Shown: piece by piece, positions 23,759 to 41,008 of the stretch
How positions within the stretch are numbered: the stretch's first letter is position 1
Layout: every line of letters starts with the position of its first letter
Origin: Verrucomicrobiia bacterium
GTDB lineage: Bacteria; Verrucomicrobiota; Verrucomicrobiia; Limisphaerales; CAIMTB01
Length of the DNA stretch: 64,000 nt
NCBI GenBank assembly: GCA_019634625.1
Contig: JAHCBA010000001.1
Coordinates: forward strand, 1-64,000
Direction of reading: 5' to 3'
Program-made: the position numbers and the translations under genes
Notes under the pieces: model-generated
Databases searched by the model: none
What the model was told of the DNA's origin: nothing
What the model saw: the letters and a program-made list of their open reading frames with translations, nothing else

Positions 23759-24907
23759 CTACGCCGCCACCGGCACCTCCCGGCCGTTCAATGCCGTCAG
23801 CGCATCCTCAAACGAACTGGCAAACGACCAGTCCTTCGTCTCCTCGTACTTCCGGCATTCCTGGATCACCACCGGCGACCCGATCATCCGCAACCGCAGC
23901 GACAATTCGTTGCAGAACTGCATCACCTCGAGTCCCAGCTTGATCAGCAGGATGTCCGCGGACTTCAACGCGCTCACATCGAACACCACCCGCCCAAAGC
24001 CCGCATCCACCGCCTCCGCCACCTTGGCCCGAAGGTGCGAGGACACCTCGTTGGCCACCGCTCCGTTGAAGGACACCGGCAGGCTCAGCACCAGCACGCC
24101 GTCCCGGTGCTGGAAGTACTTGTACGAAGTGTCCAGCGAGAGCGCCCGGGCAACCTTCCCCTTCAGTTCCTCAAACTCGATCGGCTTGGTGATCACACCC
24201 GTGAATCCGCTCTGCTGCGCCCGCGCCTGATCCTCCACCGCGTTTTTCACGCACATCGCAAACACCGGCACCGACTTCGTCCGCGCATTCCCCCGCAGCG
24301 CCTGGAACAGCGAGAACGCCGAATCGTCCGGCAGCGTGAGGCTCACCAGCACCGCATCCGGCGCCGTCTGATGGCAGTAGTCCAGCGCCTCCCCCGCCTG
24401 GCCCCGCGCCACCACCGTCCACTGCGTGTCCGCCAACCCGGCCCGCACCTGATCACCAATCGCCGGCTTGTCGTCCACCACCAGAATCGACAGGGCGTCG
24501 TCGAAGCGCCGCGCCTTCACCGGCTGCAGCCCCTTGGGCTTCAGGTCGATGATCCGCCCCACCCGCTCCACGATCAGCTCCTCCTTGAAGGGCTTCACCA
24601 GGTAGTCGCGCACCCCCTGTTTGGCGATCCGCAGGACGTTCTCGCGCCCGGATTCGGCGGTCAGCATGACCACCGGGATCGATTTGAGGTCGGGATCCGA
24701 CTTCAGCTTGGTGAGCGCCTCGTATCCGTCCATCACCGGCATGGTGAGGTCGAGGATGATCACATGCGGCCGTTCCTTCGCCGCCACCGCCAGCCCCTCC
24801 ACCCCGTTCGAGGCCTCGAACACCTCGCAATCAAAGGGCTTGAAGGCCTTGGCAACGATCAACCGGATCGTCTTGCTGTCGTCAACAGTGAGGATCTTGA
24901 TGGGCAT
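23759..24907 (-). CDS. REC-REC-STAS-like signalling protein
   Basis: A 382-residue protein. The first receiver (1-125) is canonical, with phosphoacceptor D53 in ILDLTMPVMDG and Lys105 in LVKPF. The second (about 140-265) keeps VVDD at its start but has Ser189 where the phosphoacceptor Asp should be (VLVSLTLPDD), so it is probably a pseudo-receiver. The C-terminal 100 residues (LVLSLPVSFNGAVANEVSSHL, VVFDVSALKSADILLIKLG) look like a STAS/anti-sigma-antagonist-type domain. It follows cheX by 10 bp with GGGGA ahead of the ATG, so a chemotaxis or motility adaptor role is likely. Confidence 0.75.
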   Translation of the reverse strand: MPIKILTVDDSKTIRLIVAKAFKPFDCEVFEASNGVEGLAVAAKERPHVIILDLTMPVMDGYEALTKLKSDPDLKSIPVVMLTAESGRENVLRIAKQGVRDYLVKPFKEELIVERVGRIIDLKPKGLQPVKARRFDDALSILVVDDKPAIGDQVRAGLADTQWTVVARGQAGEALDYCHQTAPDAVLVSLTLPDDSAFSLFQALRGNARTKSVPVFAMCVKNAVEDQARAQQSGFTGVITKPIEFEELKGKVARALSLDTSYKYFQHRDGVLVLSLPVSFNGAVANEVSSHLRAKVAEAVDAGFGRVVFDVSALKSADILLIKLGLEVMQFCNELSLRLRMIGSPVVIQECRKYEETKDWSFASSFEDALTALNGREVPVAA

Positions 24908-24917
24908 AGTCCCCGTT

Positions 24918-25385
24918 TCAGCTGGATTTGATAAGTGTTTCCACCACGAACTGCCGGTCGCCGCAGCGAAACGTATTCACCCGGCGCGTCGTTGAACTGA
25001 CCGACTCAATGACAAAATGGCTTCCCCGCACAATCGACGGGATCGTCAGCACGCACGGCATCCCCCGGTCCGACAACTGCGACTTGATCTGACCCACCAC
25101 CATGTTGGTCAGCTCCCCCACCGCGTCGTTGACCATCTCGTCGCCCTCGATCTCCTCCGTCGCCAGACCGAGCATCCGTCCCGTGATCTCCCGCGCCAGG
25201 GGCGCACTGGCGTAGATGTACACCACTCCGCTCAAGCGCCCGATGAACCCCACCGATCCCGCCACGTGCGGTTCTCCGTTCCACGTCGGCACCCCGGCCT
25301 CCTCGGGCGTCACCTTGAGACTCAACATCGTCTCGAAGGCGCGGGCCACCGCCTGAGTGACCAGTTCCTCCAGTTGATCGATCAT
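24918..25385 (-). CDS. cheX: CheX-family chemotaxis phosphatase
   Basis: A 155-residue single-domain protein with the CheC/CheX/FliY active-site pattern E-x2-N in NDAVGELTNMVVGQIKSQL, preceded by AREITGRMLG. CheX dephosphorylates CheY-P; in this locus the substrate may instead be the adjacent receiver protein. It is the first gene of the 25385-20054 operon. A sigma-28-type promoter ends only 9 nt before the ATG, with no room for a ribosome binding site, so the mRNA is probably leaderless. Confidence 0.88.
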   Translation of the reverse strand: MIDQLEELVTQAVARAFETMLSLKVTPEEAGVPTWNGEPHVAGSVGFIGRLSGVVYIYASAPLAREITGRMLGLATEEIEGDEMVNDAVGELTNMVVGQIKSQLSDRGMPCVLTIPSIVRGSHFVIESVSSTTRRVNTFRCGDRQFVVETLIKSS

Positions 25386-25394
25386 GCACCCGTT

Positions 25395-25421
25395 ACATCG
25401 GCATTTTCTGCCCGCCCTTGA
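25395..25421 (-). promoter_or_regulatory. Sigma-28 (FliA)-type promoter of cheX
   Basis: Minus strand: TCAAGGGC, 11 bp, GCCGATGT. The bacterial sigma-28 consensus is TAAAGTTT-N11-GCCGATAA. The -10 element ends 9 nt before the cheX ATG at 25385, which puts the expected transcription start at or within a few nt of the start codon. Confidence 0.8.
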
Positions 25422-25440
25422 GCGCCCGGTTTCGATTTCC

Positions 25441-25467
25441 TCAAGTCGCCGCCGCCTCAGCCGATAT
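25441..25467 (+). promoter_or_regulatory. Sigma-28 (FliA)-type promoter of the HDOD gene
   Basis: Plus strand: TCAAGTCG, 11 bp, GCCGATAT. It is divergent from the cheX promoter, with 19 bp between the two -35 elements. The -10 element ends 9 nt before the ATG at 25477, again predicting a leaderless mRNA. Confidence 0.8.
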
Positions 25468-25476
25468 CGATGACCG

Positions 25477-26394
25477 ATGAGCGTCGCCGTCGCCCCATGT
25501 CCCGTCGAGTTGCCGCGCTATACGACGGCCCAGATCGAGACCCGCCTGCACTCCTGCCCCCGCCTGCCCTCCCTCGGCAGCGTCAACAGCGCCCTCCGGG
25601 AACTGCTCAGCGCCGACCACCGCTACACCACCCAGATCGCCGAAATCATCCGCCGCGACCCCAGCCTCACCGAACGCCTCCTGCGCCTCGTCAATTCGGT
25701 GTATTACGGATTCTCCACCCCCGTGAACAGCATCGAGGAGGCCGTCTTCTTCCTCGGCGTGCGCCAGATCCGCCAACTCGCCATGATGACCCCCATCATC
25801 GAGGACTTCCAAAAGCTGTCCGCCGGGGCCCCCTTCGACTGGCGCGAGTTCTGGCAGCATTGCATCGGTACTGCGATCCTGGCCCGCGAAGTCCTCGGCA
25901 CCTTCGAGATCCCCGGCGACGAATCCGACTACGTCGCGGGACTCGTCCACGATGTCGGCAAGATCGCCATGGCCGCCGCCTTCCCCAAACACTTCGCGGC
26001 CATCCATACCCTCCACCGCGAATCCCTGCGCGACCTCACCGAGCTCGAATCGGAGATCCTCGGCGTCGATCACTGCGAACTCGGGGCCCTGTACCTCCGC
26101 AACCATCGCCTCCCCGACCTGCTCGTGGAGGCCGCCCGCCACCATCACCGCCCGGAACTCGCCAGTCGCCATGTCCGCATCGTGGCGGCCGTCCAGATCG
26201 CCGATCTCCTCGTCCGCCACGGACGCGTCGGGCACAGCGGGAACCATGTCGAAGTCACCTCGGAGGCCTGGACCAGCGCATCCGGCTGGGCCATCCTCTG
26301 CGGCCGCCGGCCCCACACCGAACGGACCATCGCCGAGGCCAGCCTCATGCGGAGCCTCCAACGCCTTCCCAGCATCCTCGAGGGGCTCGTCTAG
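25477..26394 (+). CDS. HDOD-domain signalling protein
   Basis: A 305-residue protein with an HDOD domain over about residues 25-220 (LPSLGSVNSALRELL, IAEIIRRDPSLTERLLRLVNS, SIEEAVFFLGVRQIRQLAMM, GLVHDVGKIAM). HDOD proteins are non-catalytic HD relatives found in regulators of motility, c-di-GMP signalling and chemotaxis arrays. This is the only plus-strand gene in the motility region; it diverges from cheX and has its own sigma-28-type promoter, so it is likely part of the late flagellar regulon. It converges on the kinase at 26414 with only 19 bp between stop codons. Confidence 0.88.
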   Translation: MSVAVAPCPVELPRYTTAQIETRLHSCPRLPSLGSVNSALRELLSADHRYTTQIAEIIRRDPSLTERLLRLVNSVYYGFSTPVNSIEEAVFFLGVRQIRQLAMMTPIIEDFQKLSAGAPFDWREFWQHCIGTAILAREVLGTFEIPGDESDYVAGLVHDVGKIAMAAAFPKHFAAIHTLHRESLRDLTELESEILGVDHCELGALYLRNHRLPDLLVEAARHHHRPELASRHVRIVAAVQIADLLVRHGRVGHSGNHVEVTSEAWTSASGWAILCGRRPHTERTIAEASLMRSLQRLPSILEGLV

Positions 26395-30041: not shown

Positions 30042-32270
30042 TCAGGCCGCCATCGCCAGGGCACCCGCCCGGGATGTCCCCAACTGCTCGACATCCAGGA
30101 TCAATCCCACGCGCCCGTCGCCCAGAATGGCCGCGCCCGACAGTCCGGCACTCCGTTTGAACGTCTCGCCCAGGCTCTTGATCACCACCTCCTGCTTGCC
30201 CAGCAGATCGTCCACCAGGATGCCCCGTGCGTCCCGTTCGGATTCCACCACGATCACGATGCCCTGGGTCGCATCCGCCGACCGCGGCGTCAGCCCGAAC
30301 AAGGCGTGCAACCGCAGCAGCGGCAGCAACCGCCCCCGCACGTTGATCACCTCCGTCCGCCCCTGCACCGTCGAGATCATGTCCGCCGTCGGCCGGAACG
30401 ACTCCCGCACGGTCAGTGTCGGCACAATGTACCGGTGCGGCCCGATCCCCACGATCATCCCGTCGATGATCGCCAACGTCAGCGGCAGATGAATCGTAAA
30501 CCGCGATCCGCGCCCGGGCGTCGAACTGATCTCCACCCGGCCCCGCAACTTCTCGATGTTCCGCCGCACGACGTCCATCCCCACACCCCGCCCCGACAGG
30601 TCCGTGACCTTTTCCGCCGTCGAAAATCCCGGGGCAAACACCAGGTTGAACACCTCGCTGTCCGTCAACTCGCTCCCCTCGGCCAGGATCCCCTTCTCCA
30701 CCGCCTTCCGGTGGATCCGCTCCCGGTTCAACCCGGCCCCGTCATCCTCCACCTCAATGACAATGTTGCCGCCCTGGTGAAACGCCCGCAGATGGATGAC
30801 CCCGTGCGGCGACTTGCCCGCCGCCAACCGCTTCTCCGCCGTCTCGATGCCGTGATCCACCGCGTTCCGGATCATGTGCACCAGCGGATCGCTGATCTCC
30901 TCCACAATGGTCCGGTCCAGTTCCGTCTCCTCCCCGCTCATCCGCAATTCGACATGCTTGCCCGCCTTCACCGAGACGTCCCGCACCAGCCGGGTCATTT
31001 TCTGGAAGGTGGACCGGATCGGAACCATCCGCAGCGACATCGCCACCCGCTGAAGATCCTTGGTGATCCGTCCCAACTGCCCGAGGTTCCGGCTCAAGAC
31101 GCGACTCTCCAAGCTCGCAAGGTCCGGATCCTGCATCACCAGGGACTGCGCGATGACCATCTCCCCCACCATGTCCACCAGCGCGTCGAGCTTCTGCGTG
31201 TCCACTTTCACGGTGGTCGCCCCCCGCCCGGCGCCACCCGCCTCCGCCAGCGACGCGGATCCGGTGCCCACGGAGGCCTTCGCCACGTCGGCCGCAGCCC
31301 CGCTCGATCCGTCTTCCTCCCCCCCGGACGCCCCGGGCCCGACCGGGCCCCTCACGACGGGTTCGACGGCCGCTGCCGGCCCGGCGGCCATCACCGCCCG
31401 CACCCGGCCCAGCACGGTGCCGGTCGGCACGAAGATCGGCTCATCCTCCTGCCGGCCGCTCAACCGCGTCTCGATCTCCCCGACAAACCGCTTGAGGATG
31501 TCACCGCCGGCAAGGATCAGGTTGATCACCCCGGAGTCGATCGCCAGCCGTCCCTGGCGCGCCAGGTCCAGCAGCGATTCCAGCTCGTGCGCCAACCGGT
31601 TGATCGGGCGGAGATTCAGAAAGCCCGATCCTCCCTTGAACGTGTGAAACGCCCGGAAGATCGAGTTCAACGTCGCCGAGTCCGTCGGGTTCTCCTCCAG
31701 CGTGAGCACCCCCAGCTCGATGTTCTGCAGATGCTCGTGCGACTCGTTGGCAAACTCCCGCAGCAACTCGGCGTCGCACGCCAGGTTCAGTAGAAACGCC
31801 TCCTCCTCCGACTCGTCCCCGTTCGCTTTCGTCAACGGGGGCGCGACCGCCGCTTCGTCCCTTTCCGCACCCGCCGCCGCACCTTCCGCAGCGTGCGCGC
31901 CATCCGCGCCATCCGCGCCATCCGCGCCGTCCGCCCCCGCGTCCGGCGTGGCCGGCAGCGGCCCGCCAGCCCCCACGGCCATCGCGCCCGCCTGCATCCA
32001 TTCCACCCACTCCCGCAGGCGCCCCAGGGTCTCTTCATCGAAGTTTCCCCGCCGGAGCGCCTCGTCCACCACGCCCCGTCCCCGCACACACATCGCCGCG
32101 AACGATTCCGGCAGATCGAGACCCGACACGGTCTCCTCGATGTCTCCCAGCAGGCTGTTGATCGGAAGCAACCCGCCATCCTGACCCGGCTGGGCCAGAA
32201 CGAGCTCCAGCGCAACCTTGTCGATCGACTGGGTCAGGGCGTTCAGCTGGGGGCGGTCCGGGCAGTCCAT
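30042..32270 (-). CDS. cheA: Chemotaxis histidine kinase CheA
   Basis: A 742-residue kinase: N-terminal helical region, Hpt domain (about 160-270, phosphoacceptor His209 in FRAFHTFKGGSGF), dimerisation domain (about 350-420), HATPase (DPLVHMIRNAVDHGIE, DDGAGL, GRGVGMDVVR) and a CheW-like domain (about 600-735). A (Asp-Gly-Ala) repeat sits in the linker near 115. CheY- and CheB-binding P2 is not evident. The start at 32270 is preferred: GAAGGA lies 9 nt upstream, and upstream ATGs at 32297 and 32279 fall at or immediately after the predicted transcription start. cheW follows. Confidence 0.95.
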   Translation of the reverse strand: MDCPDRPQLNALTQSIDKVALELVLAQPGQDGGLLPINSLLGDIEETVSGLDLPESFAAMCVRGRGVVDEALRRGNFDEETLGRLREWVEWMQAGAMAVGAGGPLPATPDAGADGADGADGADGAHAAEGAAAGAERDEAAVAPPLTKANGDESEEEAFLLNLACDAELLREFANESHEHLQNIELGVLTLEENPTDSATLNSIFRAFHTFKGGSGFLNLRPINRLAHELESLLDLARQGRLAIDSGVINLILAGGDILKRFVGEIETRLSGRQEDEPIFVPTGTVLGRVRAVMAAGPAAAVEPVVRGPVGPGASGGEEDGSSGAAADVAKASVGTGSASLAEAGGAGRGATTVKVDTQKLDALVDMVGEMVIAQSLVMQDPDLASLESRVLSRNLGQLGRITKDLQRVAMSLRMVPIRSTFQKMTRLVRDVSVKAGKHVELRMSGEETELDRTIVEEISDPLVHMIRNAVDHGIETAEKRLAAGKSPHGVIHLRAFHQGGNIVIEVEDDGAGLNRERIHRKAVEKGILAEGSELTDSEVFNLVFAPGFSTAEKVTDLSGRGVGMDVVRRNIEKLRGRVEISSTPGRGSRFTIHLPLTLAIIDGMIVGIGPHRYIVPTLTVRESFRPTADMISTVQGRTEVINVRGRLLPLLRLHALFGLTPRSADATQGIVIVVESERDARGILVDDLLGKQEVVIKSLGETFKRSAGLSGAAILGDGRVGLILDVEQLGTSRAGALAMAA

Positions 32271-32301: not shown

Positions 32302-32329
32302 GCATCGGCACCCGCCGCTCCGGACTTGA
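32302..32329 (-). promoter_or_regulatory. Sigma-28 (FliA)-type promoter of cheA
   Basis: Minus strand: TCAAGTCC, 12 bp, GCCGATGC, one base longer in the spacer than the other copies here. The transcription start should fall near 32295, giving cheA a leader of about 25 nt with a GAAGGA ribosome binding site. Confidence 0.65.
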
Positions 32330-37741: not shown

Positions 37742-38165
37742 TCTGGTCCTGCTGAACCCGCTCCAACTGGCTCAGGCAGGTCGCCAGGCGCCCCGCCAAG
37801 AGGTTCGAAAAACTCTCCCAGTCCCGCCGGCGTCGCAAGACTTCGTCCACCTCATCCTCCAACCGCCGCGCCTCGTCCGCCAGACGATCCAGCTGCCCCG
37901 CCTCCCAATCGCCGCCCGCCGCCATCGTCCGACCCCGCCGCCGCAGCGACTCCAACACCCACAGCCGCGTCCGCAAATGGGGCCGGAGCCCGCTCCAAAC
38001 CCGCTCCGCAAAAGCCCAGGGATCCTCCGATCCCGCCCCCGCGGCCTCCCCCATCCGCCCTCCCGGACCCGGCCCGTCATCTCCTCCCGCCAGCGGAAAG
38101 GTGGGTGGCGCCGGAGTCGTTGCCGCCTGTTCGATCGTCATCATGAAGTGGCCCTCGGGGTTCAC
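37722..38165 (-). CDS. Small helical protein between fliD and lipoprotein gene
   Basis: A 147-residue protein with a Pro/Gly-rich N-terminus and a helical C-terminal half (ARRLEDEVDEVLRRRRDWESF, LSQLERVQQDQNE). No family recognised. It starts with GTG overlapping the fliD TGA (GTGA), with an ATG at 38141 as alternative, and overlaps the lipoprotein gene. The position after fliD suggests a filament-cap or FlgN/FliT-like chaperone; this is an inference. Confidence 0.6.
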   Translation of the reverse strand: MNPEGHFMMTIEQAATTPAPPTFPLAGGDDGPGPGGRMGEAAGAGSEDPWAFAERVWSGLRPHLRTRLWVLESLRRRGRTMAAGGDWEAGQLDRLADEARRLEDEVDEVLRRRRDWESFSNLLAGRLATCLSQLERVQQDQNERGDF

Positions 38166-39880
38166 ACGCGAGCCTGCGTGCTTCCGAATCGCTGCATCAG
38201 AAACTGCATCTGCTGGTTGATGTTGGCCTGCGCCTTCTCCATCACCACAAACCTGTCGAGCATCCGCGCCCGGTTCGACTGCACGATCCGTTCCAGATCG
38301 TCGATCTGACGCCCGATGTCCGACGCCTGCCGCGTGAGCAGCGACTGCTTCGATGCCACCACCCCCTCGTCGCCGGTCATCCGGGTCAGATAACTCCCCA
38401 AACGCACGGCCAGTCCATGGTCAGGATCCGAAAACAACGCCCGCACCGCCGGCAACCGTTCCGCCAGCGCCCGGTCCAGGGCCTCCGGGTCGGCCAGCTC
38501 CAGCTTGTCGTCGTTGCTGTTCGAAACGATCCCCAGCGACTCCAGATGCCGCAGCCCCAGCCCCTCCCCCGACACCGGGCTGTACACCATCCGCCGCAGC
38601 GTCGCCGACATCCCATCCGCATCCCCGTCCGCCGTCAGCGGACTCGCCTTCACCTTGCCCTCGGAGTCCGTCGTGCTCGCCGTCTGCGACGCTATCTGCG
38701 ACTGCACCTTGTTGTACGCATCGATGAAATCCGTGATCGCCTTCCGCATCGCCCCGGCATCCCCCTCCACCCGCACCGTCGTCGTCTCCCCCTCCCGCAA
38801 GGCCGTGACAGTCACCCCCGCCAGTCCGGAACTGCCCTCCCGGATGGTGTTCGACTGGCTCCGCAGTTCCCCCCCGCCATTGACCGTATAGAGAAGGTCC
38901 CGGCCCCGGTCGAGGGTGCCCCCCTGCAACCCGGTTGCCGCCAGGAAGTTCCCGGTCACATCCTCAAGGGCGATCCCCATGTCCCCGGTCCCCTTGTTCG
39001 CCAGGACAAACCGGTCGTTCGAGAAATCGTAGCTCGCCGTCACCCCCGCCGATGACTCGTTGATCCGCCGCAACACCGCGTCCAGCCGGTCGTCCGCATG
39101 GAAGGAGATGTCCACGCCGTTGATCCGGAACTTCCCCGCCCCCGCCCCCCCGTCACTCACCGTCGTCGCCAGATTCGACTCCGCCAGCGAAGCCGTCAGA
39201 CGAACGCTCCCCAGCGCCCCGGCGCTGCTCACCTCGCCCGTCCCGTTGTTGTGAAGCTGCGCCACCTGCAGGAAGTTGCTCGTGTCCGTCGCGCTCCCCA
39301 GCACGATCGGCCCCGCACTGTCCAGCCGGATTCGATCCTGCGCCGGGTCGTAGCTTCCCACAACCGCCCCGCCGGTGGCGCTTCCGATCCTGTCGAAGAC
39401 GTTCTGCAGCGTGTCGTCGGCCGTCACTTCGACCAGGGCGCCATTGACGCGGAAGCTCCCGGCCGTGATCGGCGCGGCGAAGCCGGCCGTCGCCAGGGAC
39501 AACCCCGACACATCGGGCCCGTCGTGCAACGGTCCTCCGATGTTGCCCTGCCCCACCTGGCGCGCCGCCGTGGCCAACTGACGAAACTCGAAGGTGTACG
39601 TCCCCTCCGCCGCCCCCGCGGACGCCGTGGCGCTCGCCGCCGCCGCATCCCCCACCGATGCCTTGCGCGCCTGAAACAGGTCCGGTGACTTCAACGCATC
39701 GACGCGGGTCGCAAGAATGTTGAGCTGGGTGAGAATGCTCCCGTAGGCGTTCTTTCGCTGCTCCAGAAGGTTCTGCTCCGACATCAGCCGCCGCTGCGGA
39801 AGCCGCTCGACGTTGGCAATCTGGTCCACCAGCGATCGCCAGTCGAAGTTCGACGCCAATCCTGAGAGACCAAGCTCCAT
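38162..39880 (-). CDS. fliD: Flagellar filament cap protein FliD
   Basis: A 572-residue hook-associated protein 2. The N-terminal FliD domain has MELGLSGLASNFDW, LVDQIANVERLPQRRL and YGSILTQLN; the variable middle (about 100-350) includes two FlgK/FliD-type repeats (LVEVTADDTLQNVFDRIG and ISFHADDRLDAVLRRIN). The C-terminal coiled coil (LTRQASDIGRQIDDLERIVQ, FVVMEKAQANINQQMQFLM) is typical. A sigma-28-type promoter ends 9 nt before its ATG, which leaves no room for a ribosome binding site. The 147-residue gene and the lipoprotein follow in the same operon. Confidence 0.95.
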   Translation of the reverse strand: MELGLSGLASNFDWRSLVDQIANVERLPQRRLMSEQNLLEQRKNAYGSILTQLNILATRVDALKSPDLFQARKASVGDAAAASATASAGAAEGTYTFEFRQLATAARQVGQGNIGGPLHDGPDVSGLSLATAGFAAPITAGSFRVNGALVEVTADDTLQNVFDRIGSATGGAVVGSYDPAQDRIRLDSAGPIVLGSATDTSNFLQVAQLHNNGTGEVSSAGALGSVRLTASLAESNLATTVSDGGAGAGKFRINGVDISFHADDRLDAVLRRINESSAGVTASYDFSNDRFVLANKGTGDMGIALEDVTGNFLAATGLQGGTLDRGRDLLYTVNGGGELRSQSNTIREGSSGLAGVTVTALREGETTTVRVEGDAGAMRKAITDFIDAYNKVQSQIASQTASTTDSEGKVKASPLTADGDADGMSATLRRMVYSPVSGEGLGLRHLESLGIVSNSNDDKLELADPEALDRALAERLPAVRALFSDPDHGLAVRLGSYLTRMTGDEGVVASKQSLLTRQASDIGRQIDDLERIVQSNRARMLDRFVVMEKAQANINQQMQFLMQRFGSTQARV

Positions 39881-39889
39881 GTCTCGGTT

Positions 39890-39916
39890 CTATCGGCACC
39901 CGACGCCCGGACTTGA
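39890..39916 (-). promoter_or_regulatory. Sigma-28 (FliA)-type promoter of fliD
   Basis: Minus strand: TCAAGTCC, 11 bp, GCCGATAG. The -10 element ends 9 nt before the fliD ATG, the same distance as for cheX and the HDOD gene, so a leaderless transcript is predicted. Confidence 0.8.
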
Positions 39917-40838: not shown

Positions 40839-40981
40839 AAGAGACTCTTTCCTTGAGTCACCCCTTGCGGGGGTTTCCGACGCGGCATTCCATGCCACGG
40901 GCAGATCTTTCCTGGGGCGTCCGCCTTTCTCCCCGCTGGCTCTTACTGGCTGCCAACCGCCACTGTCTTACGACACCCCAT

Positions 40982-41008
40982 TCATCGGCAGCCCGTTCCA
41001 CCACTTGA
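40982..41008 (-). promoter_or_regulatory. Sigma-28 (FliA)-type promoter of flagellin
   Basis: Minus strand: TCAAGTGG, 11 bp, GCCGATGA. Unlike cheX, HDOD and fliD, it lies about 143 bp before the ATG, giving flagellin a long 5' leader. That leader contains a small hairpin (ACCCCCGCAAGGGGT near 40861-40876). Confidence 0.8.

Follow-up and report, generated by a model that had tools for sequence, protein, structure and literature searches.

Divergent sigma-28 promoters close to the cheX and HDOD start codons, at a distance conserved for cheX, point to probable leaderless mRNAs in a Verrucomicrobiota bacterium

The window, i.e., the whole stretch of DNA that was analysed, comprises the initial 64 kb of contig C1 of an uncultivated Verrucomicrobiota bacterium. 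The source genome has 6.74 Mb in 88 contigs with a GC content of 66.9%, and its closest named relatives are Verrucomicrobiota MAGs, including Limisphaerales and Pedosphaera-like genomes. The window encodes cheW, cheA, flagellin and fliD and, separated by a gap of 91 bp, a minus-strand cheX and a plus-strand gene for an HDOD-domain protein. Two promoters of the sigma-28 (FliA) type, TCAAG-N14-GCCGATNN, lie within this gap. The features of the locus are as follows.

23759..24907, minus strand: response regulator with two receiver domains, 10 nt 3' of cheX
24918..25385, minus strand: cheX, chemotaxis phosphatase family CheX, 155 aa, start ATG at 25385 (Pfam PF13690, E 4.7e-22)
25386..25394, minus strand: spacer aacgggtgc, 9 nt from the -10 element to the cheX ATG, with the predicted transcription start within it or at the A
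25395..25421, minus strand: cheX sigma-28 promoter, -35 TCAAG at 25421-25417, N14, -10 GCCGATGT at 25402-25395, kept in relatives
25441..25467, plus strand: HDOD sigma-28 promoter, -35 TCAAG at 25441-25445, N14, -10 GCCGATAT at 25460-25467, compared in relatives
25468..25476, plus strand: spacer cgatgaccg, 9 nt from the -10 element to the HDOD ATG, as read in the sequence
25477..26394, plus strand: HDOD-domain protein, 305 aa, start ATG at 25477 (Pfam PF08668, E 1.2e-51)

CheX is an ordinary member of its family (78.3 bits for the PF13690 domain, compared to the curated cut-off of 27), and the novelty lies in the start of its mRNA; cheX and the response regulator likely form one operon. Both promoters combine a -10 of the GCCGAT type with a -35 of the form TNAA(G/C) at a spacing of N14/15, which is the sigma-28 pattern. 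The original prediction had placed two facing sigma-28 promoters here, each ending 9 nt before an ATG and leaving no room for a ribosome binding site. The motifs and their conservation in relatives bear out the two promoters, both spacers are exactly 9 nt long, and neither contains a Shine-Dalgarno (SD) sequence; the word "facing" has to be corrected, because the arrangement is back to back, transcription is divergent, and only the -35 boxes, 19 bp apart, face each other. An extra ATG at 25470, 2 nt past the plus-strand -10 element, is out of the HDOD frame.

The genome encodes a FliA-family sigma factor that could read these promoters. The FliA gene is located at C41:47128-47799 (TIGR02479, 252.6 bits, compared to a cut-off of 189.6) in an FlhF-FliA-MotA-MotB cluster, with an FlhF-like gene on one side and motA/motB on the other. 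A second FliA-family gene, at C4:97396-98061, also scores above the family cut-off and is isolated from flagellar genes; its neighbours are a xylulokinase-like gene and a CoA-ligase-like gene. With two sigma factors of this family above the cut-off, one of them alone and far from any flagellar gene, the C4 paralogue might read the cheX and HDOD promoters, which would then have no tie to the flagellar cascade. We consider this unlikely, because flagellin and fliD carry this promoter motif upstream as well, and the copy in the flagellar cluster is the one with the higher score. No FlgM was found in the source genome by PF04316, so that an anti-sigma checkpoint is at most putative here. One short ORF in G004 that follows a sigma-28 site resembled FlgM by eye, but it has no Pfam match and was rejected.

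Relatives were fetched in two ways, via HDOD and, separately, via cheX. A sigma-28 site is present in 27 of the 30 cheX loci read, and in 24 of these 27 Limisphaerales loci, spread over 15 GTDB families, the homologous ATG is found 8-10 nt past the -10 octamer (9 nt in 14 sequences, 10 nt in eight, and 8 nt in two). The remaining three have their start codon at 7 nt (GTG), 10 nt (GTG) and 11 nt (ATG). The 24 spacers are unrelated in sequence, with a mean pairwise identity of 28%, and only one of them contains an SD-like 4-mer. The ATG, in turn, never varies, and it marks exactly where a three-base periodicity in conservation sets in, with conserved amino acids and free third positions in the N-terminal codons.

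These data bear on the possibility that the annotated ATGs are wrong and that translation begins at internal codons behind a ribosome binding site and an ordinary leader, an outcome that had been named beforehand as a refutation. In the window sequence, cheX codons 5-7 contain a GGAGG that could be taken for such a site; however, it is not followed by any suitably placed start codon (the next candidate, a GTG, is ~19 nt further on), it is not kept in the relatives, and the coding pattern of the 24 sequences runs from the ATG itself. Internal initiation is thus not supported and appears very improbable.

In 930 kb of sequence from relatives, there are 89 strict sigma-28 sites, compared to 10, 4 and 3 matches for control motifs with wrong spacing or a permuted -10. 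The distance from these 89 sites to an ATG-started ORF peaks at 8, 9 and 10 nt (6, 16 and 9 cases, 31 altogether), in a tally that leans to the cheX/HDOD pair because most of its loci were obtained via HDOD. Only five cases in total fall at 0-6 nt, and the three control motifs show none at 7-11 nt.

The arrangement also recurs at a third gene of the window.

38162..39880, minus strand: fliD, flagellar hook-associated protein 2, start ATG at 39880 (Pfam FliD_N/FliD_C)
39890..39916, minus strand: fliD sigma-28 promoter TCAAG-N14-GCCGATAG, exactly 9 nt before the ATG

Base composition predicts 0.02 occurrences of TCAAG-N14-GCCGAT with an ATG 9 nt further on in 6.74 Mb; an empirical rate, obtained with the looser THAAG motif and the ATG moved to 14 nt past the octamer, is ~0.26 per genome (38 matches in 146 genomes). 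The source genome has three strict matches with the ATG at 9 nt, namely cheX, HDOD and fliD, all of them flagellar or chemotaxis genes. The genome-wide statistics were derived from pattern searches and ~0.6 Mb of stretches. Among the strict 9-nt matches in the 146 relatives that were read, namely those with fetched loci, the ones opening into an ORF of at least 100 aa led to eight cheX loci, HDOD, fliD and a single unrelated protein of 437 aa. Chance matches in a GC-rich genome do occur, as shown by the 38 hits with the moved ATG and by the scan with two mismatches, the bulk of which is at the chance level (47/42 compared to 42/42 for the reversed motif); therefore, only strict matches are informative, and the loose scan was not taken as evidence. 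As an explanation for the locus, chance is at odds with three strict motility-gene matches where ~0.02-0.26 are expected and with the nearly exclusive cheX, HDOD and fliD targets among the matches read in the relatives. It is refuted by cheX spacing conserved across the order and by the 8-10-nt peak that is absent from the controls, and its probability is negligible.

The spacing of the other two genes is more variable. The HDOD start is found at 8-10 nt in members of the genus and of several further lineages, and at 11 to ~35 nt elsewhere. For fliD, the spacing is 9 nt in G002, G003, G004 and G010, i.e., in the genus and in G010; four further loci have 6-8 nt, and others have longer distances (up to 87 nt) or no site. 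Given this variability, leaderlessness is not needed for every sigma-28 gene, and leaderless geometry is near-universal in sigma-28-driven cheX and optional in HDOD and fliD. In Opitutaceae/Opitutia relatives (L121-L128), HDOD has no leaderless sigma-28 promoter beside it; the closest sigma-28-like site is weak and mostly 50-70 nt off. Within this sampling, the leaderless arrangement seems to be confined to Limisphaerales.

In Campylobacter jejuni, mapped sigma-28 starts lie 6-8 nt past the -10 element (CGATwt; PMC3847290), and the term "leaderless" covers leaders of up to 6 nt (PMC3293720). Combined with the 8-10-nt spacing, this start-site distance predicts leaders of ~0-4 nt for cheX and HDOD, which would be leaderless in this sense and would have no place for a ribosome site. 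The AUG starts, the spacers free of SD sequences and the three-base periodicity from the named AUG are all consistent with such transcripts. The leaderless geometry of the original prediction is thus strengthened by the comparative data, and its transcription start at or near the A of the ATG is carried over from other bacteria as a range of 0-4 nt. We conclude that the 91-bp region very probably holds back-to-back FliA promoters that give leaderless mRNAs of the cheX operon and of HDOD, translated from a 5'-terminal AUG and belonging to the late FliA tier. This conclusion is built on the promoter geometry, start codons, conservation and FliA gene observed here; FliA dependence, the exact start site and leaderless translation are what we infer. 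FliA-RNA polymerase would start each transcript within ~0-4 nt of the ATG, and the products would be a monocistronic HDOD mRNA and a cheX-response-regulator mRNA, both leaderless. Their 5'-terminal AUG would be recognized by a 30S subunit loaded with initiator tRNA, or by a 70S ribosome, without an SD site. Both signalling genes would then belong to the tier of the flagellar programme that is expressed late and depends on FliA.

An additional promoter farther upstream, inside the opposite gene, could produce leadered transcripts that do most of the translation, even with genuine sigma-28 sites. Promoters inside coding sequence are possible in principle, and the opposite gene starts immediately; nevertheless, the two sigma-28 promoters occupy the whole gap, the longer transcript would likewise lack an SD sequence, and a minor promoter fails to explain why the 8-10-nt distance is held by selection in 15 families while the spacers drift. 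This alternative is quite improbable.

Under the preferred reading, i.e., leaderless transcripts from the two sigma-28 promoters, it should be asked how unusual the case is. Leaderless mRNAs are mostly described under promoters of housekeeping sigma factors, and they are reportedly poorly conserved among related species. The class III FliA promoters of enterics and Campylobacter likewise have a -35 and a GCCGAT -10 and serve motility and chemotaxis targets, and the mRNAs that depend on them generally have leaders with an SD sequence. In contrast, cheX, HDOD and fliD have an essentially leaderless geometry here, and flagellin retains a long leader. The leaderless mRNAs of C. jejuni and Helicobacter pylori resemble the present case in that an AUG start codon stands right after the -10, without an SD sequence, in flagellated hosts (PMC3847290). 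Those of C. jejuni, however, have a sigma-70 -10 (TAnAaT) and a leaderless status poorly conserved between species (PMC3847290), whereas the cheX case is sigma-28-driven and strongly conserved.

The closest precedent is whiH of Streptomyces coelicolor, with a leaderless transcript from a sigma-WhiG promoter that has the -10 GCCGACAA (PMC3160421). It shares the FliA-family sigma factor, the type of -10 element and a transcript that begins at or next to the start codon, as is predicted for cheX and HDOD; it differs in being a sporulation gene of an actinobacterium, in a group where leaderless mRNAs are common, whereas the Verrucomicrobiota case involves motility and chemotaxis genes, a divergent pair, and a cheX spacing conserved across the order. 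Apart from whiH, we found no direct precedent in the literature for sigma-28 leaderless mRNAs or for Verrucomicrobia start-site maps, and the part of the literature that was covered described no flagellar FliA regulon with a leaderless class, nor any such class this deeply conserved.

The description of these mRNAs as unusual is further tempered by the scarcity of SD sequences in the genome. SD-like 4-mers precede 26% of 93 strict starts, compared to 12-17% in upstream control windows (contigs C1, C2, C3, C4, C18 and C41), and some Verrucomicrobia are reported to be SD-scarce (PMC10783764); in an SD-poor genome, the missing ribosome site at cheX and HDOD is unremarkable by itself. A general leaderless signal of the sigma-70 type (TANNNT close to the start) showed no clear enrichment among 245 leading genes or the 93 strict starts, with isolated candidates only; as the starts set by the home-made gene caller are imperfect, this null result gives no more than a bound on the effect.

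A distance from promoter to cheX start that is fixed across the order, next to a spacer whose sequence drifts, is in our view strong comparative evidence for selection at cheX on leaderlessness as such. This makes cheX a clear and countable case in which to ask why a gene should be kept without a leader.

The same regulon includes, beside the leaderless geometry of cheX, a flagellin gene of the opposite design.

40982..41008, minus strand: flagellin sigma-28 promoter, 143 nt from the -10 element to the ATG, a contrast case
40839..40981, minus strand: flagellin leader, 143 nt

The leader length is ~129-154 nt in 21 flagellin loci with a sigma-28 site. The leader folds as a series of hairpins, in which two-sided changes support 11 of the 22 predicted pairs (19 sequences), and the ribosome site is displayed in the loop of the terminal hairpin, GACTC-AxGGAAG-GAGTC, just before the ATG. 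The leader had no family match in Rfam 15, and it is a candidate for a new cis-regulatory RNA, conserved and structured in many Limisphaerales. In the same genome, csrA (C18:30307-30462) is located directly upstream of a second flagellin gene (C18:30613-31023). Together with the hairpin that holds the ribosome site, this neighbourhood makes it a reasonable hypothesis that CsrA controls flagellin through the terminal leader hairpin. More tentatively, the FliA regulon of Limisphaerales may be split by design into two translational classes, such that the chemosensory and late-assembly genes cheX, HDOD and fliD, being leaderless, escape leader-based control and the structured leader of flagellin suits repression of the CsrA type. 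Leaderless initiation would then have been selected as a regulatory trait of this sigma-28 regulon and would not simply follow from genome compactness and SD scarcity; we regard this as possible, though rather doubtful.

The window contains one further contrast case.

32302..32329, minus strand: cheA sigma-28-like site TCAAG-N15-GCCGATGC

A leaderless cheA was excluded, since a conserved Met10 at 32270, with an AAGGA motif 9 nt upstream on inspection of the sequence, fits better than the first ATG. Thus, cheA is probably a short-leader gene with a wrong automatically called start. The sigma-28-like site is found 4 nt before that first ATG both in the window and in G002.
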